Assembly (NCBI GenBank): GCA_948466735.1
Contig: CAOKBR010000007.1
Coordinates: forward strand, 1-35,590
Source of the DNA: an uncultured Mycoplasmatota bacterium
GTDB taxonomy: Bacteria; Bacillota_I; Bacilli_A; RF39; UBA660
DNA length: 35,590 bases
Direction: 5' to 3'
Of the stretch, positions 13,316-26,346 are shown piece after piece; within the stretch, counting starts at the first letter, position 1; each line of letters starts with the position of its first letter. Below the pieces are notes generated by a model. The model was not told the origin of the DNA and ran no database searches. It saw nothing but the letters and a program-made list of their open reading frames with translations. The translations under genes were made by a program, and so were the position numbers.

Positions 13316-13331
13316 GAAATCATTCTTACTG
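13304..13331 (-). terminator. Terminator of the transglutaminase-like gene
   Basis: CAGTAGGAA-ATCA-TTCTTACTG (13310-13331) makes a 9-bp stem with one G-U pair. Read on the minus strand it is followed by six T (13309-13304). It overlaps the stop codons of both convergent genes. Confidence 0.8.
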
Positions 13332-14234
13332 CTTTAACTCTTGATACACCTCTTCATTAAAACGATGTTGCGTAGAATCTAATTCCATTAACTCATCAGT
13401 AGTAATTAAATAAAAGTTATATTCAATAATGTCTGTCCCATCTGTCGTAATAGGATCATCCCAAGTTAAATCTAAGTGATACCACGTATTATCAATATAT
13501 AGAGCATTCCAAACGTGATTTTCACTAGCAATTTTATAATTTTCTACCCCTAAGTGATCTAAAAATAAGGCCATACTATCTGTATATCCTCCACATAAAG
13601 CATACCCTTCAATCAATGCACCATATGCAGTATCTGACTGATAAGTAACCAATGAACTATCACTACGATTACTATCATATTTTGTATGTTTAATAATATA
13701 ATCATGAAAAAACTTAATCTTATCTAAAAGAGGACTCTCCTCATCTATTCCATTTGCAATTTCTAAAACCTTATTCGTTAAAGTTGCTTTATCACTTTCT
13801 TGATACACTGGATAATAAGTAATAGTTACTTTATTAAAAGAGTCATATTCTGTTTCAATATTTTTAAAACTATTAAACGGATGGACAAAATTATTAAGGT
13901 TAGATAGAACAATTTGATCATTGGCAAGAGTTTTAACATCATCTATACAAGAAGTATATTCTCTAGGACAATAAAAAGAGTATGATTTTTCACCAGAATT
14001 TAAAATAGAATAATAAATATTTTTTAAATCATTCATGTTCATTGGAATGATTTGATTTACTTGTTTGATGTAGTTCACATGATTTTCCTTAGTATAGTCA
14101 TTTTTACTACTTAAGATAAATATCTCTTCATTTTTAATCACGTGTGTAGCTAGCCATTTAATGATATCTTCCTTAGTAACATAAAGTATTCCTATTAAAG
14201 TTAACACAAGTAAAGCTTTATAGATAAATTTCAT
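13326..14234 (-). CDS. Membrane-anchored transglutaminase-like cysteine protein
   Basis: A 302-residue protein with one N-terminal membrane helix (about 5-20) and a C-terminal transglutaminase/protease-like core outside the cell. The triad is visible: C214 in YALCGGYTDSM, H240 in ENHVWNAL, D255 in WYHLDLTWDDP. Such proteins may crosslink or cut surface proteins; the substrate is unknown. I chose ATG 14234, behind GGGTG, over an upstream in-frame ATG at 14276 that would add 14 residues before the membrane anchor and has no binding site. It faces away from the surface-protein cluster 0.6 kb away, so a role in processing or linking those proteins is possible but only inference. Confidence 0.85.
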   Translation of the reverse strand: MKFIYKALLVLTLIGILYVTKEDIIKWLATHVIKNEEIFILSSKNDYTKENHVNYIKQVNQIIPMNMNDLKNIYYSILNSGEKSYSFYCPREYTSCIDDVKTLANDQIVLSNLNNFVHPFNSFKNIETEYDSFNKVTITYYPVYQESDKATLTNKVLEIANGIDEESPLLDKIKFFHDYIIKHTKYDSNRSDSSLVTYQSDTAYGALIEGYALCGGYTDSMALFLDHLGVENYKIASENHVWNALYIDNTWYHLDLTWDDPITTDGTDIIEYNFYLITTDELMELDSTQHRFNEEVYQELKQ

Positions 14235-14300
14235 TTTTTTCACCCTTATTATCATTATACGATAAAAATTAGACAATTACTATTTCTTTTAAAAAAAATA

Positions 14301-14349: not shown

Positions 14350-14661
14350 TTGAATTTATTTTTAAGAGTATATGCAAAAAATAGTTTTCTAGATTATCCA
14401 TTAAATGATAGAAGTATATTTACTATAGGAAGTGGAAAGGAAGATGATTCCGTTTTAAATTTAGATAATATAAAAGAAAAGCAAGTTGTATTAAAGAAAA
14501 TGATGGGGGTATGGTATATTGAATCAAGTTATCCTATGGTGTATCAGAAAACGATGATAAAGAAGAAAAAAGTAGAAGTTAATGATATATTTTATCTTTC
14601 ATCTAAAGATAAAATATATTTGTACTTTTATGATTTAAATCAAGGATTACCAATAAAATAG
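14350..14661 (+). CDS. Small FHA-like domain protein
   Basis: A 103-residue protein resembling the N-terminal forkhead-associated (FHA) domain of EssC/YukB-type proteins: YPLNDRSIFTIGSGKEDDSV followed by KEKQVVLKKMMGVWYIES and a C-terminal strand pair. FHA domains usually bind phosphothreonine peptides. Here the canonical GR-S-H-N residues are not clear, as in the EssC versions, so phosphopeptide binding is doubtful. There is no membrane segment. The TTG start is the first possible codon after an in-frame stop and follows AAAGGATGAAGTTGAT with usual spacing. No ESX/type VII gene is seen in the window, so this may be a detached domain or an adaptor for the following surface cluster. Confidence 0.55.
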   Translation: MNLFLRVYAKNSFLDYPLNDRSIFTIGSGKEDDSVLNLDNIKEKQVVLKKMMGVWYIESSYPMVYQKTMIKKKKVEVNDIFYLSSKDKIYLYFYDLNQGLPIK

Positions 14662-14724: not shown

Positions 14725-14753
14725 TTGACAAAATAATAAGGTTGTAGTATAAT
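14725..14753 (+). promoter_or_regulatory. Consensus sigma-A promoter P1 of the surface cluster
   Basis: TTGACA (14725-14730), exactly 17 nt, TATAAT (14748-14753): a perfect vegetative promoter. Its transcript would start near 14760 and read through P2. Confidence 0.85.
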
Positions 14754-14822
14754 TAGTAGCACATAAGAAAGGATGCTTGAAGACACAATAGACAAATAAA
14801 AAATGTCGATAGAAAAAAAGAG

Positions 14823-14851
14823 TTGACATTTTGAAAAATTTGTAGTATAAT
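14823..14851 (+). promoter_or_regulatory. Consensus sigma-A promoter P2 of the surface cluster
   Basis: TTGACA (14823-14828), 17 nt, TATAAT (14846-14851), 98 bp after P1. It shares with P1 the 12-mer TTGTAGTATAAT. Its leader of about 53 nt holds a five-codon reading frame (ATG 14875, stop 14890-14892) behind GAGGG, then the AGGGGTG site of the first gene. Confidence 0.9.
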
Positions 14852-14910
14852 GTGTATACCAAATGAGGGATAGCATGAAGATGAAAAAATAAAAAAATAG
14901 GGGTGTTAAT

Positions 14911-17412
14911 ATGTTGAAAAAAGGATTAGAAAAAATTAAAAATTTATCAATTAAGAAAAAAGTTGCTGTAGTTATGGCAACAGTACTTGGAGTAGGTGGA
15001 GGATTCGCTATTCAAAAAGCAGTAAAAAATTTATCTGAACAAGAATCTATTACATCTAGTACAATTGAAGAGTATACAAGCAGTAACATTACTTCTAGTG
15101 ATGTTTACAATAATATGATTGAAGATGATAAGGAACAAAATACAATTTATGGACCTATTATTAATGAGATTGAAATCATTGGAGACGAGGAAGATAATAA
15201 GGTTGAAGCTAATGAGACTATAGAAAAAGTTGAAATTGATTTTTATGATACTATTGACTTATCTGACTACAAAGGAGACCTTCTAATGCAAGGTTTAACA
15301 AATGGCGGATATGATGCATCTTATGCATTTAGATCAGAATTAGCTAAACATTATGGAATTAATGATTATGTTGGTACAATTGAGCAAAATATTAAATTAT
15401 TAGAAATCTTAAAGCAAGAGAAAAATATTCCTGATAATGCTGTAATTATTATGCCTGATGGTACTAAAGTAGAAATTGGTACACCTAGTGTGGGTTCAAT
15501 AGAAGATGAAAAAGTAAATACATTAAAACCATCTACACCATCAAATAATAACAATAATACTAATAACAATCAAAATAATAATTTGGTAAATAATAATAAT
15601 CAAAATACTAATATATCAAAACCATCAACACCAGTAAAAGATGAAAATAAAAAGCCAAATAAACCTGTTATTGATAATAGTAATAATAAAGAAGAAAATA
15701 ACAATAATAGCAACACTGGTAGTGATAACAATAATAATGATAATAACAATAGTTATGAAGATGCTCACAAACATCAATATAAAACAGTAAAAACTTATTA
15801 TGTAAATAATGGGGATACTCATACTTATGTTGTTGAGAAAGAATGTTCTTGTGGTAAAATAGAAAAAGAAGAAATTACTAACCCTCATAGCCATAATACA
15901 TGGAAAGCTTTAAATGATGAGTTAGAACAAAGTACTTGTGCTTGTGGTGCTGTAAAACAACAAAAACATAATTATCGTAATGATTCTACTATTTATGTTA
16001 TCAATGAAGATGGAACTCATACAAAAACGACAGTAGAAACTTGTCCTAATTGTAATCATACCAAGAAAACGGAAGTAACTGATAGCCATAAATTTAATGA
16101 TTGGCATCAAGTTGGTGATAAACAACATCAACATGAATGTGAATGTCAAGAAGTTGAAGTAAAAAATCATAATTTTGATAAAACTTTAACGACAGTTACT
16201 TATGAAAATAAGGAAGGTGCTACTCATACTAAAGTAGTAACTGATACTTGTAAAGATTGTAACCACAAAGTAGTAACCAAGACAACCGTTAACCATACGA
16301 TGAGTGAATGGGTTTCTGTTGATGATACAAAAGAACAAAGAACTTGTGAATGTGGTAGAGTAGAAGAAAGAAAACATGAATGGTTAACTGATTGGACTTA
16401 TAACAAAGAAACTGGAAAAGAAGAGAGAATTTGTGGTAATTGTAACCATAAAGTAGAAAGAGAACATACTAACCATAAGTTTAGTGAATGGAATCATATT
16501 GGAAACAACCATTATAATGAGAGAACTTGTCAAGATTGTGAAACAAAAGAAACTGTTGAGTTAGACCATAATTGGACTGCTTGGGCTAAATATGATGATA
16601 ATAATGAAGCTAGAACTTGTACATATGATAATTGTAAAGTACAAATGGAAACTAAAAGCCATGCTTGGTTAACTGATTGGACTTATAACAAAGAAACTGG
16701 AAAAGAAGAGAAAACCTGTGGTAATGATTATTGTAACCATAAAGTAGAAAAAGACCATACTGAACATAAGTTTAGTGAATGGAATCATGTTGGAAACAAC
16801 CATTATAATGAGAGAACTTGTGAAATTTGTGAAACTGTAGAAAAAGAAGAATTACCATGTAACTTTAGTGATTGGGAAAAAGTGGATGATACTCAAGAAT
16901 CAAGACATTGTACATATGATGGATGTGATAAAACTGAAGCACAAGATCACCCATATGTAGTTGAAAGTTATGATGAAGATGATATTAACGGAAAAGAACA
17001 TAAAGTATGTCCTAACTGTGATAACCATGTTGATGGTGATCATACATTAAAAACAACTAAAAATGATGATTATTCTATTACTTATGAATGTTTGAATGAT
17101 GGATGTGACTTTACTTATACAATTGAACACGTACATACTACAACTGGTTCAAAATTACCATTCTCAATTGGTAAAAGGGATGTATGTCATTATACAGCTT
17201 ATGTATGCGATGGTTGTGAAGACCATTATGATAAAGTATATGACTATGATCATGATATGAAGTTCGTTAAAGATAACGGAAGTAAGACAAAATATAAATG
17301 TTATGATTGTGATTATACTTATATCAAAGACAACGAAACTGGAGAAATCATTCAAGAAATTGAGCAAGAAGTTAGTCAAGAAAAAACATTAGTTCTTAGT
17401 CTATTTAGATAA
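14911..17412 (+). CDS. Large membrane-anchored surface protein with Cys/His repeats
   Basis: An 833-residue surface protein of unknown function. A basic N-terminus and one hydrophobic segment (about 18-38) could be an uncleaved anchor. Residues ~122-173 (GGYDASYAFRSELAKHYGI...GTIEQNIKLLEILKQ) resemble a small unit I recall from phage and bacterial lysins; wall binding is a guess. Residues ~205-280 are an Asn-rich, Pro-containing linker. The rest is a string of ~35-50-residue units, each with CxC or CxxC and regularly placed His and Trp (H-x-FxxW...C-x-x-C...H), like knuckles that could bind metal or form disulfides. Two units of about 95 residues are almost identical (DNA from 16381 and 16666). 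The C-terminus has no LPxTG and no second membrane helix. It is the first gene of the cluster, 24 nt before a SipW-type peptidase. Confidence 0.8.
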   Translation: MLKKGLEKIKNLSIKKKVAVVMATVLGVGGGFAIQKAVKNLSEQESITSSTIEEYTSSNITSSDVYNNMIEDDKEQNTIYGPIINEIEIIGDEEDNKVEANETIEKVEIDFYDTIDLSDYKGDLLMQGLTNGGYDASYAFRSELAKHYGINDYVGTIEQNIKLLEILKQEKNIPDNAVIIMPDGTKVEIGTPSVGSIEDEKVNTLKPSTPSNNNNNTNNNQNNNLVNNNNQNTNISKPSTPVKDENKKPNKPVIDNSNNKEENNNNSNTGSDNNNNDNNNSYEDAHKHQYKTVKTYYVNNGDTHTYVVEKECSCGKIEKEEITNPHSHNTWKALNDELEQSTCACGAVKQQKHNYRNDSTIYVINEDGTHTKTTVETCPNCNHTKKTEVTDSHKFNDWHQVGDKQHQHECECQEVEVKNHNFDKTLTTVTYENKEGATHTKVVTDTCKDCNHKVVTKTTVNHTMSEWVSVDDTKEQRTCECGRVEERKHEWLTDWTYNKETGKEERICGNCNHKVEREHTNHKFSEWNHIGNNHYNERTCQDCETKETVELDHNWTAWAKYDDNNEARTCTYDNCKVQMETKSHAWLTDWTYNKETGKEEKTCGNDYCNHKVEKDHTEHKFSEWNHVGNNHYNERTCEICETVEKEELPCNFSDWEKVDDTQESRHCTYDGCDKTEAQDHPYVVESYDEDDINGKEHKVCPNCDNHVDGDHTLKTTKNDDYSITYECLNDGCDFTYTIEHVHTTTGSKLPFSIGKRDVCHYTAYVCDGCEDHYDKVYDYDHDMKFVKDNGSKTKYKCYDCDYTYIKDNETGEIIQEIEQEVSQEKTLVLSLFR
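16381..16823 (+). repeat. Tandem ~95-codon internal repeats
   Basis: Bases from 16381 and from 16666 are identical for more than 40 positions (offset 285). The second half of each unit (AAGTTTAGTGAATGGAATCA and onward) repeats with offset 291, owing to a two-codon insertion in the second unit. The near-identity at synonymous sites points to recent duplication or conversion within the gene. Confidence 0.85.
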
Positions 17413-17436
17413 AAATAAGAAGTGGAGAAATAAATT

Positions 17437-18108
17437 ATGAAGGAAAAAACGAAATGGTATAAATCGTGGAGTAATTGGGGAGTTATTATTGCTTGCATTA
17501 TTCTCGTACCTGTGTTAATATTAAACTTGTATGTGATGTTTCAAGCAAAAACAAATGAGGATAAAGTACCTAGCGTATTCGGATATAAACCATTTATCGT
17601 TCTTTCCGGATCCATGGAAACTAAGATTCATAAGGGAGATTTGATTCTCACTAAAATAGTTAATCCTGAAACTTTGAAGGTTGATGACATCATCGCCTTC
17701 AGAGATTCAGAAAATACGGTAACGACTCATAGAATTGTCGATATCGTAGTAGAAGACGGTATAACTTATTTCATCACCAAAGGAGATCAAAATAATACAC
17801 AAGATAGAAATTTAGTTGAATTTGATGATGTAGAAGGTATATATATAGCAAGAATTCCAAGTCTTGGAGCGATAATGGATAAATTATCAGAGCCAGGTAC
17901 CATTGTTGTGGTAATTGTTGGAATTACAGCAATATTTGTCATTGGGTTCTTAATTTCTAGTAAAAAACAGCAAGATTTAGAACGTAGGGAATTATTAGAA
18001 TTTCGTAAACAATTTGTTAGTCAAAAAGAGGAAAAAGAAGTAAGTAAAAAGACTAGTGAAGAAAAAAATGACGAAGACAATGAAAAAAAGTCCGATGAGG
18101 ACGAATAA
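17437..18108 (+). CDS. SipW/ER-type signal peptidase I (first copy)
   Basis: A 223-residue membrane protease of the S26 family, ER/SipW branch, which removes signal peptides from exported proteins on the outer face of the membrane. One membrane helix lies at about 13-35 and a second at about 150-172, with the catalytic domain between. S59 in VLSGSMETKI is the nucleophile and H98 in VTTHRI replaces the Lys of the P-type enzymes; GDQNN (D117) supplies the third residue. In B. subtilis the homologue SipW processes TasA and TapA. The cytoplasmic tail (about 175-223) is highly charged and ends acidic (DNEKKSDEDE). It lies between the Cys/His-repeat gene and the TasA-like gene, its probable substrate. 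Confidence 0.92.
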   Translation: MKEKTKWYKSWSNWGVIIACIILVPVLILNLYVMFQAKTNEDKVPSVFGYKPFIVLSGSMETKIHKGDLILTKIVNPETLKVDDIIAFRDSENTVTTHRIVDIVVEDGITYFITKGDQNNTQDRNLVEFDDVEGIYIARIPSLGAIMDKLSEPGTIVVVIVGITAIFVIGFLISSKKQQDLERRELLEFRKQFVSQKEEKEVSKKTSEEKNDEDNEKKSDEDE

Positions 18109-18114
18109 ACTCCG

Positions 18115-18175
18115 GTAAACGGTCCGTAAGGATGTTTACATAAATATGATAACTCGTTGTAGATGACTACAATGA
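18115..18175 (+). promoter_or_regulatory. Two hairpins in the leader of the TasA-like gene
   Basis: GTAAAC/GTTTAC (18115-18120 with 18134-18139) holds an inner TCC-GTAA-GGA capped by a GNRA-type loop. TCGTTGTAG-ATGA-CTACAATGA (18154-18175) makes a 9-bp stem with one G-U pair. Neither has a T-run. I found no convincing promoter between 18109 and 18197. They may protect or mark the 5' end of a processed mRNA. Confidence 0.5.
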
Positions 18176-18197
18176 TATATGAAAAGGAGGTGAAAAA

Positions 18198-19325
18198 ATG
18201 AAAAAAATGAATAAGAAAGTGATGGTACTAGGCGGATTAGTAATGGCAGTTGTTTTAACTGGATACTCAGTTGTTGGAACATACGCTAAGTATACAGAAA
18301 AAGCAAGCGTTTCTGATCAAGCTACAGTGGCTAAGTGGGATGTTAGTTTCAATACAAGTGTAAAATCTTTATTTGATACTACTAAAAATAACGCTACTGT
18401 TAGTAATCGTGTAGCACCAGGTGGCTCTGATTCAGCTGTTTGGACATTAACTGGTAATAACGGTGCATCTGAAGTTAAAGTTGTATACACTGTTTCTATG
18501 ACAGCTAAAAATACTGTATCTTTAGAAATTACTGAAGAACAATATAATACATTAGTAAACGCTGGTTTAGATGAAGTTGTATATACTGATGCTGACAAAT
18601 ATTACTATTCTCCAATTGTGTTCACTGTTAATAACGAAAAATACAACGCATTGAGTGCTGTTGAAACTAAAGTTGTTAGTGGTTCAAGCTTAAGCATTGA
18701 TTGGAAATGGGCTTATGAAGCTAAAGATATCACTGTTAAAGAAGGTACAACTGCTACTGATGACCAAAAAGCTGCTGCTGCTATTTTAATTGATGAACTT
18801 GATACAATTTTAGGTAGAAAAGCAGATCCAGCGCAAACAGTTGAAGTTGAAGCTACTATAACTGCTGTTCAAGATGTTTTAGGAGAAAATAGTGCAGCAA
18901 TTACACCTGCTACTGAAGCAGAAATCCAAGCTATTTCTACAGCATATGGATATGATGCTGAATATACTAAAGACGTAGTTTTCTCTGGTAATAAATTAAC
19001 TGGAACTATCAGAAATAATACAAATTCAGCTGATAAGTTAGAAAGTATCTTCCCAGAAGAAACTGCTGATGGTATTAAAGGATATTATTATCCAGTAGTA
19101 CTTAAAGGTGTTAAGGTTGGTGCCACTGTTACAACTATAAATGTTGCAACTGGTGTTGAAAAAACACATACGTTTGCAGATGATAAGTCATTAGAAATGC
19201 TATTTATTTTAAATGCAAATGCTGATGATGCAGATAAGAAAATTATCATCAAAACTACAGCAGATGATGGTGAAACAGAAACTACAACAACAATTGATTA
19301 CTCAGAATTAAATTTTGCTGAATAA
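18198..19325 (+). CDS. TasA/camelysin-like SipW-dependent secreted protein
   Basis: A 375-residue exported protein with the SipW-type signal peptide: MKKMNKKVMVLGGLVMAVVL, then GYSVVGTYAKYTEKAS and, about 15 residues on, VAKWDVSF. TasA, CalY and related proteins have the same order and form matrix fibres in Bacillus. VAPGGSDSAVWTLTGNN matches their common PGxxGxxxxxVxN-type first strand. The rest is a beta-rich body with an Ala-rich helical stretch near 190-235. It has no wall anchor. The ribosome binding site AAAGGAGGTGA is the best in the window, and codon choice is more uniform (GCT, GTT, ACT) than in neighbours, both suggesting high expression. It would be the major subunit if this cluster builds a fibre. 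The family call is by motif; the body is too divergent to align by eye. Confidence 0.82.
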   Translation: MKKMNKKVMVLGGLVMAVVLTGYSVVGTYAKYTEKASVSDQATVAKWDVSFNTSVKSLFDTTKNNATVSNRVAPGGSDSAVWTLTGNNGASEVKVVYTVSMTAKNTVSLEITEEQYNTLVNAGLDEVVYTDADKYYYSPIVFTVNNEKYNALSAVETKVVSGSSLSIDWKWAYEAKDITVKEGTTATDDQKAAAAILIDELDTILGRKADPAQTVEVEATITAVQDVLGENSAAITPATEAEIQAISTAYGYDAEYTKDVVFSGNKLTGTIRNNTNSADKLESIFPEETADGIKGYYYPVVLKGVKVGATVTTINVATGVEKTHTFADDKSLEMLFILNANADDADKKIIIKTTADDGETETTTTIDYSELNFAE

Positions 19326-19345
19326 TTAATAGTTGATTAATTTAC

Positions 19346-19417
19346 GAAGTTAAATGTAACATTTAACTTCCAAATAAGTCCAAGAGGAGAGAAATCTTAT
19401 CTTGGATTTATTTGGAA
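19346..19417 (+). promoter_or_regulatory. Paired strong hairpins between two surface genes
   Basis: Hairpin 1 (19346-19370) is an 11-bp perfect stem, GAAGTTAAATG/CATTTAACTTC, with a TAA loop. Hairpin 2 (19368-19417) is a 17-bp stem with one G-U pair and a 16-nt loop, TTCCAAATAAGTCCAAG pairing with CTTGGATTTATTTGGAA. They share three bases, so both cannot fully form together. No T-run follows. The second arm covers a GGAAAG in front of an ATG at 19423 but leaves the AAGGAAGG/ATG 19447 site free. Confidence 0.75.
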
Positions 19418-19446
19418 AGTAAATGAAAATAAAGGAAGGTATAGAT

Positions 19447-22400
19447 ATGCGGGATTATTCTAAAAACGACGAAGAAAAGCAAAAAAAGAGAAAAATTATT
19501 ATTCGTATTATTATCATTATCTTACTTCTTTTGTTAATAACATGTTGTACATCTAAATTTTGGGGAACAATTGGTGACTTATTCAAAAATCATGGTCATT
19601 GGACAGTTGATCCTGATACGAATGATAAAACAATTATTACAAATGAAGAATTAAAATTTGACACAACATTACTACAAATTAGTTTGAGTGATACTAAACC
19701 GAAACTTAGTTTTACCTATACGAAAATTATCCCTGAAGGATTTACTTGTACAACATCTGATGCTGAAATTGCTACTTGTTATGTAGCCGATGGATATGTA
19801 GTGATTAATCCAAAGAAAACAGGAAGTGTTACAGTAACTTTACAAACGGAGACAAATGGTAAAATTTATAGGGCTACAGCAAATGTTCAAATAACTGATG
19901 CCACTAAGGGAATTCATTTAGCTTCAAAATTTGGAACAATGAATTTAATTCATAATAATCGAATGAATATTTCTTATACTTTAAGTGGTTTACCTGATGA
20001 TGTAAAAGTAAGTTCTAGCGATGATTCGATTGCTGTAGTATCTAAGAAAGCTAATGGTTTAATTGAAGTAGTTGGGTTAAAAACAGGTAAAGTAACCATT
20101 ACTTTAGAAGTAACGTATAACGGAAAAACTTATCAAGAAAGTTATACGCTTACTATTACTAAAGAACAAACAACTAATCCAGAAAATCCTGATCAACCAA
20201 ATGTTCCTACACCACCGATAGTAGAACCTGAAAAAGATAGCAATACGACTTTAAAAGAAATAACAGTTAATGGTAATTTAATTAACGGATTTAATTCTTC
20301 TAATTACGATTATTCTATTGGGGTAGATGAAAATACAAATTTAATTAATATTGATGCAATTGCTGCAAGCTCTAAAGCAAGAAATATTAAATATACTTAC
20401 TGTTATCAAGATAAGTGTAAAGAAGTATCTTCTTTGAAAGATTTAAAATTAGAAAAGGGAGATAACGTTATTACAGTTACTGTAACAGCAGAAGATGGTA
20501 CCATTGGTAAACCTTATACTATTACCATTAATAAAGCATCTTCTAAGAATAATCAATTGTCTGATATCAAGATTCTATCTCCTGATGGATTATCGCTAAA
20601 TAAACCTTTTAGTCCTGAAGATACAAATTATACAATTACTGTACCTGCCACAGTAGATAAAATTACTCTGCAAGAAGAAGTAAGCGATTCTCGTTCTAAA
20701 GTAAAATACTTTGTTAACGGAAAAGAAGCCGATTTAACGGATATTGGACTAATTTCTGGAGAAACGACCAAAGTTGAAATTCAAGTTACTAGTGAAGATG
20801 GTATAACTAGAACTTATACTGTAAATGTTTATAGAGAATCTAGTGACAATAATTTCTTAAGTAATATTACTTCATCATTTGGACACACTTTAAACGAAAC
20901 ATTTGATAAAACGAAAAATGATTATACAATGACAGTAGATTATAATACTCCAGTTGTTTCGTTAGATGCTATTAAAGAAGATAGTACAAGTAGTATTACT
21001 TGTAAATTAAATGGAAAAGATGCTGATTTATCTAATTTAATACTAGATGGAACAGATAATAAAGTAGAAATTATTGTTACCTCAGAAAGTGGTAAAGTAA
21101 ATACTTATGTGGTTGATATTCATCGACCATTAAGAACAATTCACTTTGAGAAAGATTCTTATATGGCAAATATTGAAGATAAAACAATAAGTATTCCATA
21201 TAAAGTATATGAAGATGGTAATTTAATTACTGAATATCCATTAGACGATATTACGATTGAATGTGGTAGTGCTACTTGCGATAAGCAACAAGGATACATT
21301 AATGTTCCATTAACACCTGATATGATTAATCAAAATAATAAGATTAGTGCTTCTTATTTAGACGAGAAAGCAGAAACTACCCTTAATGTTGGAATGGGTA
21401 CTTACCATATTTCATCTGTCTATAAAGGACCATATGACATTGATTATATCGATGGAGTAGGTGGAGAGAAAACGATTTCTATTGATACTAATTTAAATAC
21501 TTTTGATATGAATCCAGTAAAAATAGATAATGGTGTAAGAATTTATTTACAAAATTCTACACATACTTATATTGATATAACCTCTGATAATGGAATAGTT
21601 GATATCTTTATTCCTGATGATAGTGAAACATCTGGTATTCCAGTTAAGATTGTTGCTAAACAAGCGGGAAATACTACTATTCATGTAACAGGAACAGCTT
21701 ATAATCAGCCATTAAAAGATACTTTAAATATTGAAATAAGATTTAATGGTAAATACATATTTACTATTGATGCTAACGGTGGTTTCTTCGATGCTTTTAC
21801 AATAAAACATCAAGAAACAGTTGATAAGGGTTCTAGTGTATCTTTAGCGGATTATAATCCATATAAAGTAAACATCGAAGCAAATTGCGAATATTATAAA
21901 TTAGCTAGCTATAATACTAGTATGGATGGAAATGGAACATCTTATGCAAAAGATTATCAATTTGAAAATATTGATCAATCTATTACAGTATATGCAATAT
22001 ATGAAAATACGTCAGAGTATATCGAATTGCCAGAAATACATAAACTATATTTAACAGATGTTGACCTATTCCATAATGATGAATACTTTAAGGTATATGG
22101 AAAAGATAAAATTATTTATCCAGGAGCAATGGGATCATACAAAATGACGATTGAAAATAATCAAGCAGATACTATTACCATTAAAGGTATTACTTTAGAA
22201 GAAGATACGATATGCGTTCCTTATAAAGGTGGTAAAGGATGCTTAAATATGGGTTATTTCATTCGATATTCTGCGCGTGAAGCAAAAGACTTTACCTACT
22301 TCTATGGTGATAGTGATAAATATGCAATTTTAAATAAGGATAGCCTAACGACATTCAATAATTTACATACTAAACGTATTATTCCATTCACTGGCAATGA

Positions 22401-22599
22401 AATTACCATTCCAAAAGGCGATGGAGTAGACATTTATCTATTCTGGCGTTGGGAAGAAGTAAATGATGAATTAGATACCTTAATCGGAAAGGAAGCAACA
22501 AAGTTTAAAGAAGATGGCAAGACATTAAACGATAAGTATTCGTTAACGGTTAGTATCGATTTTGATTCAACCAATAAATATTGTAAACCAAAAGGATGA
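19447..22599 (+). CDS. Giant membrane-anchored Ig/cadherin-like surface protein
   Basis: A 1050-residue extracellular scaffold. A short charged N-terminus (KKRKIIIR) leads into one membrane helix (about 18-33, ending CC). Then come two Ig-like Big_2-type domains (about 65-240: GYVVINPKKTGSVTVTLQ, and IEVVGLKTGKVTITLEVTY), a Pro/Asn linker, and three cadherin-like beta-sandwich units from residues ~268, 368 and 467, each of the form L-x-x-I...F-x-x-x-x-x-Y...V-x-x-E-D-G-x-x-x-x-Y-x-I-x-I. A middle beta domain follows, then a Listeria-Bacteroides-type repeat near 770 (YIFTIDANGGFFDAF...ITVYAIYE), and a last ~170-residue domain. No sorting signal is seen. I chose ATG 19447 because AAGGAAGG lies 7 nt upstream; ATG 19423 is possible but its binding site lies in a hairpin. 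Ends in TGA, 6 nt before the next start. Confidence 0.85.
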   Translation: MRDYSKNDEEKQKKRKIIIRIIIIILLLLLITCCTSKFWGTIGDLFKNHGHWTVDPDTNDKTIITNEELKFDTTLLQISLSDTKPKLSFTYTKIIPEGFTCTTSDAEIATCYVADGYVVINPKKTGSVTVTLQTETNGKIYRATANVQITDATKGIHLASKFGTMNLIHNNRMNISYTLSGLPDDVKVSSSDDSIAVVSKKANGLIEVVGLKTGKVTITLEVTYNGKTYQESYTLTITKEQTTNPENPDQPNVPTPPIVEPEKDSNTTLKEITVNGNLINGFNSSNYDYSIGVDENTNLINIDAIAASSKARNIKYTYCYQDKCKEVSSLKDLKLEKGDNVITVTVTAEDGTIGKPYTITINKASSKNNQLSDIKILSPDGLSLNKPFSPEDTNYTITVPATVDKITLQEEVSDSRSKVKYFVNGKEADLTDIGLISGETTKVEIQVTSEDGITRTYTVNVYRESSDNNFLSNITSSFGHTLNETFDKTKNDYTMTVDYNTPVVSLDAIKEDSTSSITCKLNGKDADLSNLILDGTDNKVEIIVTSESGKVNTYVVDIHRPLRTIHFEKDSYMANIEDKTISIPYKVYEDGNLITEYPLDDITIECGSATCDKQQGYINVPLTPDMINQNNKISASYLDEKAETTLNVGMGTYHISSVYKGPYDIDYIDGVGGEKTISIDTNLNTFDMNPVKIDNGVRIYLQNSTHTYIDITSDNGIVDIFIPDDSETSGIPVKIVAKQAGNTTIHVTGTAYNQPLKDTLNIEIRFNGKYIFTIDANGGFFDAFTIKHQETVDKGSSVSLADYNPYKVNIEANCEYYKLASYNTSMDGNGTSYAKDYQFENIDQSITVYAIYENTSEYIELPEIHKLYLTDVDLFHNDEYFKVYGKDKIIYPGAMGSYKMTIENNQADTITIKGITLEEDTICVPYKGGKGCLNMGYFIRYSAREAKDFTYFYGDSDKYAILNKDSLTTFNNLHTKRIIPFTGNEITIPKGDGVDIYLFWRWEEVNDELDTLIGKEATKFKEDGKTLNDKYSLTVSIDFDSTNKYCKPKG

Positions 22600-22605
22600 T
22601 GAGTG

Positions 22606-23436
22606 ATGAAGATTGTTAAAAGAATACTTTTAATATTCGTCACTTCTATCCTTGGAGCAATGTTTGTTTTCAATCTATACAACATGATTTGCTTAAATAT
22701 TTTAAAACAAGATTTGACTTCTATCTTAGGATATGGTATTTTAGAAGTAGCATCAGGTTCAATGGAACCTACAATTCATACTGGTGATATTATTGTTATT
22801 GACACCAATGAAGAACACTTTAACATTGATGATATTATTACGTTTTATGATAAAGAAGGTTCCTTTGTAACACATAGAATTATTTCGAAAGATGAAGATG
22901 GTAGTTTTATTACTAAAGGTGATATGAACAATACGGATGATGGCATTGTTAAACCAAATCAAATTGTTGGAAAATGTATTTATCGCTTAGGTAGTGTTGG
23001 TAATTTGATTAAAACACTTAAAAGTCCAATAGTAATGGTTATGATCTTCATTGTAGGTGTACTCATATGTATCTATCTCAGTATGGACAAAGAAGGAAAC
23101 TTCCTTGACGAAGAAATAGAAGAAAAGAAAGTAGAGACAATACCTCAAGTACATGAGGAAAAACTAGAATTTGGAACAACAAGAAATGTAGAAATCAAAG
23201 AAGTTGTAATTGAAAAAATTACGAAGGAACAACTTAGGAATACTCAACCAAAGAGAAAGCCGATTAATAAATCAACTGGAAAAGTTGTAAGTAAACAAGC
23301 TAAGAAAAAAACAACGAAAGATAATACGAATAATAATAAAAAGAAGAATGCAAATAATAAAAGAAAAGTACAGGCATATAAAGTAAATTCTTCGAATAAG
23401 AAAAAAACAACAAGTAAAAAACATAAGAAAAAATAA
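22606..23436 (+). CDS. SipW/ER-type signal peptidase I (second copy) with basic tail
   Basis: A second S26B-type peptidase, 276 residues. Catalytic residues are S52 in EVASGSMEPTI, H90 in FVTHRI and D106 in KGDMNN. Membrane helices lie at about 5-29 and 138-158. It differs from the first copy in its C-terminal ~70 residues, which are almost only Lys, Asn, Thr and Ser (QAKKKTTKDNTNNNKKKN) and would face the cytoplasm. The first copy ends in an acidic tail. ATG 22606 lies 5 nt after AAAGGATGAT; GTG 22603 is a less likely start. It directly precedes two genes whose products have related signal peptides, so each peptidase seems paired with its own substrates. Confidence 0.92.
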   Translation: MKIVKRILLIFVTSILGAMFVFNLYNMICLNILKQDLTSILGYGILEVASGSMEPTIHTGDIIVIDTNEEHFNIDDIITFYDKEGSFVTHRIISKDEDGSFITKGDMNNTDDGIVKPNQIVGKCIYRLGSVGNLIKTLKSPIVMVMIFIVGVLICIYLSMDKEGNFLDEEIEEKKVETIPQVHEEKLEFGTTRNVEIKEVVIEKITKEQLRNTQPKRKPINKSTGKVVSKQAKKKTTKDNTNNNKKKNANNKRKVQAYKVNSSNKKKTTSKKHKKK

Positions 23437-23462
23437 AATAAAGGAAGATTGTGGTGATTTAT

Positions 23463-24128
23463 ATGAAAGGGTTAATGCATAGTAAGAAATTTAGAGCAAA
23501 TTTGCGTAAATGGTTGTGTATGTACATCAGTGTACTTATACTTCTTACTGTGGTTGTTACTTATTCTAAATATTTAGCTAGTCTTCCGCCAATTTCTGAA
23601 AACGCTAGTATTGCTAAATTTAATGTAGATATTGATATTATTGGATGTACTAGTCCTTTAGTACCAATTGAAGTATGTGAAAATGGTACTGAAGAAGAAG
23701 ACTGTGAAAAACAAACATCTTATATTTGTAGCGATACAGAAGAACAAAGACCTACAAAAGAGATGAATTATCGATTTAGTGTAGATACTAGACAATTAGA
23801 TGTTAAAACAAAAGTTTTAGTAAAAGTAAAAGTAGATTCACATTTTACCATTAAAGATATAAAAAATGTTACTGATCCACTTGCTCCAGTTCCAGTAGAA
23901 CTTAAGGATGCATCAGGAGAAAACGTTATTTCACTTGGAGATATTAAAGATGGTATACTGTATATTTGGGATGTTATTCCAGCAGGAGGAGCTCTTCCTA
24001 AAGAATATAATTTAACTATCATTTATGATAATAAACAAGTAGAAAACGATAATTATAGCTTAACAGACGGTTATGATTACGAGAAAATTGTAACCATTGG
24101 TTATAGCGCAAAACAAGTAATAGAATAA
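23463..24128 (+). CDS. SipW-dependent-type exported protein
   Basis: A 221-residue exported protein. The N-terminus is very basic (KKFRANLRKW), followed by a helix (YISVLILLTVVVTY) and the SipW-type exit VTYSKYLAS, with ASIAKFNVDIDI 16 residues on. This repeats the pattern of the TasA-like protein (GTYAKYTEK...TVAKWDVSF). A Cys-rich loop follows (five Cys at about 60-90: IGC, VCENG, DCEKQ, YIC), then a beta-rich domain (YRFSVDTRQLDVKTKVLVKV). I chose ATG 23463 behind GTGGTGAT, the arrangement also used by uvrC. A GTG at 23451 would add four residues. It is probably a minor subunit or anchor partner like TapA, but I see no sequence match to TapA. Confidence 0.75.
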   Translation: MKGLMHSKKFRANLRKWLCMYISVLILLTVVVTYSKYLASLPPISENASIAKFNVDIDIIGCTSPLVPIEVCENGTEEEDCEKQTSYICSDTEEQRPTKEMNYRFSVDTRQLDVKTKVLVKVKVDSHFTIKDIKNVTDPLAPVPVELKDASGENVISLGDIKDGILYIWDVIPAGGALPKEYNLTIIYDNKQVENDNYSLTDGYDYEKIVTIGYSAKQVIE

Positions 24129-24144
24129 TAGGTGAGGAAAGGGG

Positions 24145-25905
24145 ATGAAAATAATGAAAAAAAATCGTAAAGTTAGTAAAGTAGGTTTATATACTATCTT
24201 AGTCGTATTTGCCATTGGATTGACAATCTATCCTCAAACTAGTTCTAGATATGATTATAAGGAATGGGACAAATTAATTTATAATTCTAAATTATCTGAA
24301 TTATATGTTAAGGGTGCCGTCACTGCTCAGTGGAGTGCTGATAACTTTTCAGAAAACGTAGTATATTTTGATGTAAAGTTTGATCGTAACCCAAATATGT
24401 TAAACAAAGAAAAAGACGTTTATACTAATCTTTCATTTACGAAAAAATTGTCTGATGGTACAGTAAAAAAAGATGCTGAATTGTGTGAAGTTATTTGGGT
24501 AAAAAAAGCATCCACTGGGGAAGAACAATTTAATTTTCCGATTGAATACACTACTAATGAAACAGAAAGTTTTACTGCTAGAATTAAATGTAGAATTGAT
24601 GCTATTACTGATGTAGCAGCAGATAACACCACATGGTATGCCTTTAACATTGCTATAAAAGAAAAAATCGATGATGATGAATATTCATTTGTTTATTCTT
24701 CTTATGATTTAAGCAGACAATACGATAGTAATCCAATTCCAAAACATCCAGAAGTATTTACTATTTCTAAAAATAGTACAACTAAATTAGCAGATTTTAT
24801 TAAAAAGATGGAAGATTATGCAACTTATACACCATGGGAATCCGTTGATGAATATTTTACTGGTAAATTAATTAATTACTTTAAAAAGTCATATACGAAA
24901 GAAGAGAGCATATGTACTTCTATTCCAGGATTAAATATTGAATGTACTGAACTTACGGAAACTGACGAAATTCAATTTACTTTAACAGCGAAACCAACTT
25001 TACGCGGTTATGCTAGAACAAGATATGCAGTTGATCAGAATGATGCGGAATATATGTTTATTACCAGTTTTACTGAAGAGGATTTAGAAGAAGCTTTCCA
25101 TTATTATTTGACTACATATACTTATCCTGAAAGTAGTCAAGCAGTAGAATTAATTCACAATTATTTACATCGTTTTGGAGCAACATTTAAACTTGAGGAT
25201 CAACCTGTTGTTGCCGGTGGAACAAGATATAGAGTTATTGCTGTTGATGAAATAACAAAAAAAGAAGTTATTTTATACGGAGTATTATATAGTCCAACCA
25301 ATCGTTTGATTGTTACTGACTCTATGTTATTAAATTATGCATATAATGTAAAAAATCATAAAATTGTTATGCCAGTACTTGATGAATTTGACTTAGAGGA
25401 TTTGTTCAATAAAGGTTTAATTTTAGTATATAGTGATTGGATGACTGACAAAATGGTTACAGCATTAAAAGCAGATACTAGAATTTATAATTCATATACA
25501 AAGAATAATAGTGATAAACAAACTCTTGTAGATTTTGATGATTACTTTATTACAGCAGTAACCAATGAAGATAATACAACACAATATATTATGACTCACA
25601 TCTATTCTAACGATACAACAATTACAGATAAGGGCGAGAAATATTCAGTTGCTGAATTATCTATCATTGATCCAAATAACATTACCTCTGCAACTTTCCC
25701 TACAGTACCGACGAATATTTATTTATCTGCATTAAATGCCGATTACCAAACAGATAATACAATTTTTGCTAGTATTGTTACAAGCCTAAATACATACTTT
25801 GCTCAAGAGATGACAGTTTCATTTACCACTGGAAGTAAAGCCACAACTGGAGTATATACAGTGCCAAGTACATATACACAATCTCAAGAAGAGACAAATG
25901 AATAA
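24145..25905 (+). CDS. Large exported protein, last gene of the surface cluster
   Basis: A 586-residue exported protein of unknown family. The signal segment (KVGLYTILVVFAIGLTIY) ends in PQTSSRYDYKEW, which fits the T-x-[A/S]-[K/R]-Y exit of the other two substrates, and VTAQWSADNF follows at about the place of AKWDVSF. The body is mixed alpha/beta with many Tyr and Thr, few Cys (ICTSIPGLNIECTEL) and no clear repeats, and the tail is Thr/Ser/Gln-rich. No anchor is seen. ATG 24145 is used here; ATG 24154 (MKKNRKV) has AAAGGGGAT in front and may be the true start. It lies 16 nt after the previous gene and is followed by a terminator. Confidence 0.75.
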   Translation: MKIMKKNRKVSKVGLYTILVVFAIGLTIYPQTSSRYDYKEWDKLIYNSKLSELYVKGAVTAQWSADNFSENVVYFDVKFDRNPNMLNKEKDVYTNLSFTKKLSDGTVKKDAELCEVIWVKKASTGEEQFNFPIEYTTNETESFTARIKCRIDAITDVAADNTTWYAFNIAIKEKIDDDEYSFVYSSYDLSRQYDSNPIPKHPEVFTISKNSTTKLADFIKKMEDYATYTPWESVDEYFTGKLINYFKKSYTKEESICTSIPGLNIECTELTETDEIQFTLTAKPTLRGYARTRYAVDQNDAEYMFITSFTEEDLEEAFHYYLTTYTYPESSQAVELIHNYLHRFGATFKLEDQPVVAGGTRYRVIAVDEITKKEVILYGVLYSPTNRLIVTDSMLLNYAYNVKNHKIVMPVLDEFDLEDLFNKGLILVYSDWMTDKMVTALKADTRIYNSYTKNNSDKQTLVDFDDYFITAVTNEDNTTQYIMTHIYSNDTTITDKGEKYSVAELSIIDPNNITSATFPTVPTNIYLSALNADYQTDNTIFASIVTSLNTYFAQEMTVSFTTGSKATTGVYTVPSTYTQSQEETNE

Positions 25906-25935
25906 AGAGCTGATAATAATCAACTCTTTTTCTTT
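25904..25935 (+). terminator. Terminator of the surface cluster
   Basis: AAAGAG (25904-25909) pairs with CTCTTT (25924-25929), with an inner TGAT/ATCA pair across one mismatch and an AATA loop. It runs into TTCTTT. It closes the 11-kb transcription unit. Confidence 0.7.
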
Positions 25936-25944
25936 ATATTTACT

Positions 25945-25977
25945 AAAAAAAACATCTTACTCAAATTGAGTAAAATG
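25945..25977 (-). terminator. Terminator of rpsT
   Basis: On the minus strand CATTTTACTC-AATTT-GAGTAAGATG forms a 10-bp stem with one G-U pair and is followed by eight T (25952-25945). Confidence 0.85.
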
Positions 25978-25982
25978 CTTTC

Positions 25983-26246
25983 TTATTTCATTTCGTTTTT
26001 CAATTTTGTTAAACGAGACTTTTCACGAGCAGCTTTATTTTTATGTACTAAACCTTTTGATTTAGCTTTATCAATAGCTTTAATCGCAGTATTTAGCTTC
26101 TTGCTTGCTTCTTCCTTATTACCAGCTTTAATCTCTTTTTCAGTTTTTTTGATGGCATTTTTCATTGTTGAATTTACTAATACATTCATTTCTTCTTTTT
26201 TAGCACTAACTTTAACACGTTTTTTAGCACTTTTAATATTTGGCAT
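25983..26246 (-). CDS. rpsT: 30S ribosomal protein S20
   Basis: An 87-residue, Lys/Ala-rich, all-helical protein that binds 16S rRNA in the body of the small subunit. It begins MPNIKSAKKRVK and has the KKLNTAIKAIDKAKSKGLVHKN segment typical of S20. An AGGTG binding site precedes the ATG. It is divergent from gpr, the same arrangement as rpsT-gpr-spoIIP in B. subtilis. Confidence 0.96.
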   Translation of the reverse strand: MPNIKSAKKRVKVSAKKEEMNVLVNSTMKNAIKKTEKEIKAGNKEEASKKLNTAIKAIDKAKSKGLVHKNKAAREKSRLTKLKNEMK

Positions 26247-26275
26247 CCTTTTTCACCTCACTTTAAACATACCTT

Positions 26276-26304
26276 ATTTTAACAAAAAAAGCAATAAAAA
26301 GCAA
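26276..26304 (-). promoter_or_regulatory. Probable promoter of rpsT
   Basis: On the minus strand TTGCTT (26304-26299), 17 nt, TAAAAT (26281-26276), about 30 nt before the rpsT start. Confidence 0.5.
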
Positions 26305-26346
26305 ATAAAATCACAAAATTTGTAGATAATATCACTAGGTGATAAA

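Follow-up and report, generated by a model that had tools for sequence, protein, structure and literature searches.

How many signal peptidases does a cell-surface polymer need, and what would an operon that encodes two of them build? In the few bacilli and clostridia for which surface polymers exported by SipW-type peptidases have been described, each operon has a single peptidase. The window (the whole stretch of DNA analysed here, 35 590 nucleotides) makes up contig 7 of a draft genome of 1.06 Mb and 92.8% completeness, and it contains seven same-strand ORFs, in the order C-1-T-I-2-t-X, spanning 14911–25905, among which genes 1 and 2 both encode SipW-type peptidases. The intergenic gaps from C to X are 24, 89, 97, 3, 14 and 16 nt, and the gap between T and I becomes 121 nt if I begins at ATG 19447, the start used by its relatives. 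The features of the region are as follows.

14725–14753, plus strand: promoter 1, a perfect sigma-70-type TTGACA-17-TATAAT sequence, kept in the same-genus locus L019
14823–14851, plus strand: promoter 2, perfect sigma-70-type, 98 nt downstream of promoter 1 and also kept in L019
14911–17412, plus strand: gene C, an ORF of 833 aa with an N-terminal hydrophobic segment, an Asn-rich linker and Cys/His repeats
17437–18108, plus strand: gene 1, SipW-type signal peptidase 1 (Sip1), 223 aa, S59/H98, TIGR02228 at 86.6 bits
18109–18147, plus strand: RNA element R2, a hairpin with a bulge, GTAAAC...GTTTACATA, in the 1-T gap, supported by covariation
18198–19325, plus strand: gene T, putative major subunit (TasL family), 375 aa, SipW-type signal GTYA/KY (the slash marks the predicted cut)
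19345–19423, plus strand: RNA element R1, hairpin 1 (19346–19370) and hairpin 2 (19370–19415) between T and I, supported by covariation
19423–22599, plus strand: gene I, 1058 aa (1050 from 19447), identified by PF12733 (E 2.2e-36) and profile comparisons
22603–23436, plus strand: gene 2, SipW-type signal peptidase 2 (Sip2), 277 aa, probable start 22606, TIGR02228 at 76.2 bits
23451–24128, plus strand: gene t, putative minor subunit, 221 aa from ATG 23463, SipW-type signal VTYS/KY
24145–25905, plus strand: gene X, fast-evolving putative secreted protein, 586 aa, SipW-type signal TSS/RY
25904–25929, no strand assigned: stem-loop between X and the convergent rpsT, putative bidirectional terminator

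The seven genes, two perfect promoters and terminator listed by an earlier, sequence-only reading of this DNA are all in place, as judged by ORF calls, shuffles and conservation in L019. TTGACA-17-TATAAT occurs twice in the window, and none of 100 shuffles gave two; perfect sites are rare in the genome, with 19 in 1.06 Mb against one for the reversed control pattern. The stem-loop behind X probably acts as a bidirectional terminator. It is one of four terminator-like matches where 3.4 are expected by chance, and its position is therefore stronger evidence than its score. On its other side lies rpsT (ribosomal protein S20; 25983–26246, minus strand), convergent with X; a plus-strand ORF overlying it (25966–26325) is spurious. 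Upstream of the promoters are genes for a transglutaminase-core protein (13326–14276, minus strand) and a small FHA-like protein (14350–14661, plus strand; a weak match, E 0.13), both kept in the same-genus genome; in other genomes they do not belong to the cluster.

Downstream of the cluster lie gpr and spoIIP, and TasA was originally described as a spore-coat protein. The small genome and the presence of gpr and spoIIP agree with RF39, the suspected order here, whose genomes are small and predicted to include spore-formers (PMC10868615), so a spore-related structure comes into question as the product. We consider this very improbable, since the cluster would be driven by perfect sigma-70-type promoters, the putative terminator and the convergent rpsT separate it from gpr, and the genes flanking it vary among genomes.

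When 147 relatives were searched with X and T, only a minority had homologues. The regions fetched around these matches and 80 named loci from a scan with a Sip1 alignment were then scored, using for each of the seven families a profile made from about eight members of this same collection. About 50 MAGs of uncultured gut Bacilli share the order C-1-T-I-2-t-X, which bears out the expectation that the genes co-occur in relatives; the nearest named contigs belong to MAGs of uncultured Bacilli or 'Tenericutes', many with isolate names that indicate gut metagenomes. Because the scan was seeded with Sip1 and the profiles came from the same set, the junction counts, taken over non-redundant family loci with a next ORF on the contig, measure synteny given Sip1, not natural frequency: 1-T is kept in 50/50, T-I in 47/49, I-2 in 41/42, 2-t in 41/43 and t-X in 39/41. 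The exceptions are two tandem T copies (L023 and L077) and five unlabelled ORFs that scored no match. Upstream of Sip1, a Cys/His-rich protein is encoded in most loci not ended by a contig edge. T was found in about 11 of the roughly 87 genomes from the same family; the cluster is patchy, and therefore not essential. A shorter version, 1-T-I'-2-t-X', exists in other Bacilli and Clostridia, and in its clearest examples the two peptidases are again divided between the two sides of the peptidase tree. Genome G026 has two variant clusters (L030 and L031), each with an R1 element, a short anchored I' and a T-like t, in which the last gene encodes a large protein carrying repeats of the FDxNGGxGxM type.

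Sip1 and Sip2 both score above the TIGR02228 cut-off of 51.85 bits and have a catalytic His where bacterial-type SPase I has Lys, with Ser/His pairs that are invariant in the family alignments, so that the claim of two ER/SipW-type enzymes holds. Both fall below the cut-off of 190 for the Bacillus SipW equivalog NF046067 (Sip1 96.6, Sip2 78.8). The active-site residues first assigned to Sip1 (S59/H98) are correct, and those assigned to Sip2 (S52/H90) become S53/H91, the earlier numbering having started at the second Met. A maximum-likelihood tree built from 137 SipW-type sequences unites the 54 family members of Sip1 in a clade (support 100/98) apart from Sip2. The peptidase pairs of L028 and L087 divide in the same manner: Sip1 of L028, L087 and L090 groups with the Sip1 clade (99/86 and 99/94), and the Sip2 sequences of L028, L031 and L087 fall on the side of Sip2 (with 100/97 support for the trio). 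The bootstrap of this tree is incompletely settled, some of its rows are long and Sip2 forms no single clean clade; the conclusion, to which exact branching does not belong, is that, judging from the tree, the SipW pair is older than the C-1-T-I-2-t-X family. The earlier reading called the system doubled and enlarged; the doubling is no local enlargement, as paired and separately evolving SipWs predate the family and are found also in Clostridia. Our literature search, which covered little of the subscription literature, yielded no relevant paper on paired SipWs, and such an absence is weak evidence.

Several other SipW-type arrangements were seen. Ruminococcus-type loci L109, L111 and L114 have two SipW-type peptidases, grouping with neither Sip1 nor Sip2, around proteins of 524 and 720 aa. 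A SipW-type peptidase that begins with a helix-turn-helix (HTH) DNA-binding domain (HTH_3 E 3.5e-17), and behind which lies another HTH-like ORF, is encoded at G000:C1:32641-33078 (L003:1186-1983) and at L122:1022-1816 (G001); this membrane peptidase may also regulate transcription. In genome G000, a second SipW locus (G000:C10, L034:8611-12128) has two small proteins with SipW-type-looking signals upstream of the peptidase and two exported proteins downstream, and the two proteins tested had no Pfam match. A distinct long form of SipW-type peptidase, about 390 aa in length and extended at the N-terminus by several helices (L119:307-1491, L120:353-1534 and L121:556-1743), is met repeatedly in the family, with many open frames of 380–400 aa.

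What do the two enzymes cut? In T, t and X alike, a hydrophobic stretch is followed by a motif of the type [TS]-x-[AS]-[KR]-Y, in agreement with the three SipW-type substrates originally named. The cut site of T reads GT[YF]A[KR][YF] in 51 of 52 T proteins and NTYAKY in the remaining one. The residue before the predicted cut is Ala in all 52 T proteins and Ser in all 41 t proteins with a legible site, a difference that fits two peptidase specificities, with one peptidase per substrate set. One t start was wrongly placed by the ORF caller. In X, for which a few sites were chosen by a loose pattern, this residue is mostly Ser and otherwise Ala, so the split would not be absolute. Should the peptidases instead be interchangeable, the second copy serving as dosage or backup, the variable residue in X, the identical catalytic layout of the two enzymes and the presence of other SipW substrates and peptidases in the genome would all be accommodated. 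What such redundancy leaves unexplained is that separate lineages stand side by side throughout the family and are split also in L028 and L087, that each peptidase is fixed directly upstream of its own substrate, and that Ala marks T where Ser marks t; we therefore regard it as distinctly unlikely.

The mature N-terminus predicted by these sites is itself conserved. In the TasL alignment, the first 20 residues of mature T have a conservation of 0.61, compared with 0.20 for the rest; in t the values are 0.56 and 0.31, another stretch of t being equally conserved. A profile comparison matches t to T around the signal and the mature N-terminus (92.5%). The pattern is suggestive, and in T it is compatible with polymerisation through an N-terminal donor strand.

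T had been called TasA-like. The description is correct for the export signal and cut site, and the signal aligns with those of Bacillus TasA-type proteins; it does not extend to the TasA/camelysin sequence family. Profile comparison of T with the Bacillus TasA family aligned the signal peptide only (69%), and the Pfam and NCBIfam models for TasA or camelysin matched none of 49 family members, so membership of T in the TasA sequence family was rejected. An AlphaFold2 model of T from the family alignment is beta-rich with helical inserts (mean pLDDT 75.3), and a Foldseek search with this model, whose pLDDT is about 75, gave no match at E <= 0.001 and did not place TasA among the 50 best listed. 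The corresponding model of X (mean pLDDT 72.3) shows a beta domain at its N-terminus and mixed alpha/beta structure in the rest, and its Foldseek matches are low-scoring beta sandwiches only, including pilin and adhesin domains. Sequence searches for solved relatives of X, t and the C-terminus of I returned weak, unrelated matches only.

T also has a relative within its own operon. Protein I consists of an N-terminal hydrophobic anchor, a Big_2-like domain, three Cadherin-like domains and a C-terminal domain homologous to T, which is common to T, to I and to I' (the short anchored proteins that occupy the position of I in other genomes) and includes APG and WxW...DTxG motifs. Profile comparison links T with I' (98.2%, E 6e-14), I' with the C-terminus of I (98.8%, E 1e-16) and T with the C-terminus of I (95.1%, E 3e-8). 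All alignments of T with I or I' begin past the KY...AKW segment that opens mature T; I has neither the signal peptide of T nor its mature N-terminal segment, and a SipW-type site is absent from all 46 I homologues examined. Because I ends in a T-homologous domain and has no such signal or segment, it looks like a membrane-held base, as had been proposed. A lipobox-like ITSC follows the hydrophobic stretch in 40 of the 46 I proteins; in the I of the window this place reads LITCC, which is not a standard lipobox, and the anchor could be either a lipid or a transmembrane segment. The two giant proteins of the earlier description thus need rewording: I is better described as a C-terminal TasL domain on Ig/cadherin spacers, and C, with no match to any Pfam or NCBIfam family, belongs to no recognised one.

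Gene T is also set apart at the RNA level. Across the family, the median gaps flanking T are 100.5 and 101 nt, and the later gaps are 8–14 nt. In 38 loci, standard pairs fill 97.7% of the cells of hairpin 2 of R1, 9 of its 16 pairs show compensatory changes, and the whole R1 structure beats all 500 shuffles and all slid controls. R2 shows compensatory changes at 6 of 10 pairs in 43 loci. A covariance model of R1 finds a sole site in its own genome (on both strands, at the same palindrome-like place) and sites in 9 of the 147 relatives, at one place per genome except in G026 with its two clusters. R1 stands right after T in L030, L031, L087, L028 and L117, all of which were left out of model building. 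The best site for R2 in its own genome has an E of 2.5e-5, the next 0.12, and L028, L087 and L090 give weak matches at the corresponding position. Rfam 15 gave no match at the gathering score anywhere in the window, R1 and R2 included, and a known riboswitch or other Rfam family in the 5' region or the gaps was discarded on this basis. Judging from their alignments, R1 and R2 are newly recognised covarying RNA hairpins that frame T, and their presence on both flanks agrees with the earlier view of T as the likely major subunit. A simple scan for a stem with a T-run behind it gave a signal in 18 of 47 gaps, where 3 were expected; R1 as an intrinsic terminator is not favoured, because its second stem precedes AAA and not a T-run. 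The 3' arm of hairpin 1 also pairs with sequence past hairpin 2 (82.5% of cells, with little covariation), and a switch based on alternative pairing is possible.

From these data we propose, with a confidence a little above even, that the operon makes and assembles a sortase-independent cell-surface protein polymer, in which T would be the repeating subunit, I the base, and t and X minor parts. The signal of T would be cut at GTYA/KY, probably by peptidase 1, freeing the conserved N-terminal segment KY...ARVAKW, which might be donated as a strand to the adjacent subunit, like the N-terminus of TasA. I would retain its membrane anchor and, having no donor segment, present the T-homologous domain at the tip of a long Ig/cadherin stalk, where it would accept the first T. 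t and X would be processed, probably by peptidase 2, as minor, possibly junction or tip, parts, and C may also have a role. The hairpins flanking T probably protect or separate its message, so that T would be in excess.

The same genes might instead produce a non-fibrous surface coat or set of adhesins, with T, t and X exported, held by I and C, and left unpolymerised. Large proteins of the Ig/cadherin and Cys/His-repeat kinds are typical surface adhesins, the Foldseek search with the T model (mean pLDDT 75) did not find a TasA fold, and the weak matches of X to pilin and adhesin beta-sandwich domains would suit a coat as well. We think this rather unlikely, since it leaves unexplained the conserved mature N-terminus of T and t that is absent from I, the tandem T copies in L023 and L077, and the RNA elements framing T alone. 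A more specific form of the polymer proposal, to be taken as tentative, is a Gram-positive fibre that works like a type V pilus: two dedicated peptidases would free shaft and tip subunits, whose fresh N-termini would exchange strands, the base would be an unreleased homologue carried on a cadherin stalk, and a paired RNA element flanking the shaft gene would set stoichiometry.

New here are a gene order kept in relatives together with two peptidase lineages of old standing, the T-homologous C-terminus of I, the constant Ala in T and Ser in t before the predicted cut, and the two RNA elements around T. The carriers are some members of a small-genome gut lineage, and cultured members are absent among the matches. 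If the proposed polymer is real, it is a concrete candidate for attachment or aggregation of such gut cells and a natural experiment on one operon needing two signal peptidases. The RNA elements lend themselves to study in a laboratory host, with no need to grow the organism they come from.

Among the closest known systems is tapA-sipW-tasA of Bacillus subtilis, in which TasA polymerises through an N-terminal strand handed to the next subunit and TapA may supply the first (PMC9674648). It resembles the seven-gene operon in having a SipW-type peptidase beside its substrates, a signal ending in GT[YW]A, sortase-independent export, and an operon of peptidase with major and minor subunits (PMC9674648). 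In contrast, it has one peptidase, no anchored subunit homologue and no Ig/cadherin or Cys/His giants, and the TasA jelly-roll was undetected in the T model (mean pLDDT 75). The sipW-tasA, calY and capP genes of B. cereus provide, from one region, two different subunits and an assembly factor for sortase-independent export, with one peptidase and with a chaperone-like CapP rather than an anchored subunit homologue (PMC13082335).

In sipW-bsaABCRSD of Clostridium perfringens, SipW directly precedes the subunit, minor secreted proteins follow and an RNA signal lies after the subunit gene; an abundant short transcript of sipW and the polymer gene bsaA, readthrough into the minor genes and SDS-resistant ladders of BsaA have been reported (PMC7395162). 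Unlike the seven-gene operon, it has one peptidase and its own two-component system, and its RNA signal is predicted to be a terminator, while R1 lacks a T-run; the likeness drawn here concerns gene order and the RNA signal. The cip-cel cellulosome operon of C. cellulolyticum encodes unrelated proteins and has intergenic stem-loops by the abundant gene of a multi-subunit complex that set subunit ratios (PMC4423207), through RNA processing that is demonstrated there and may take place here.

The anchor of Mfa1 fimbriae is a subunit homologue that is not proteolytically released (PMC5789003), a trait that I, as a membrane-held and unreleased homologue, reproduces by analogy only. The likeness to Porphyromonas type V (Mfa1/FimA) fimbriae is in logic: protease-released subunits, an uncleaved membrane-held homologue and minor tip proteins. 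These fimbriae are Gram-negative, with gingipain processing and another fold and export route, and no homology is claimed; T, t and X, which have no conserved Cys and carry SipW-type sites instead, do not match the lipoprotein precursor and Arg-gingipain processing of Mfa1. The precedents of TasA, Mfa1, C. perfringens and C. cellulolyticum together make a polymer of T on a base of I the most economical reading of this operon.
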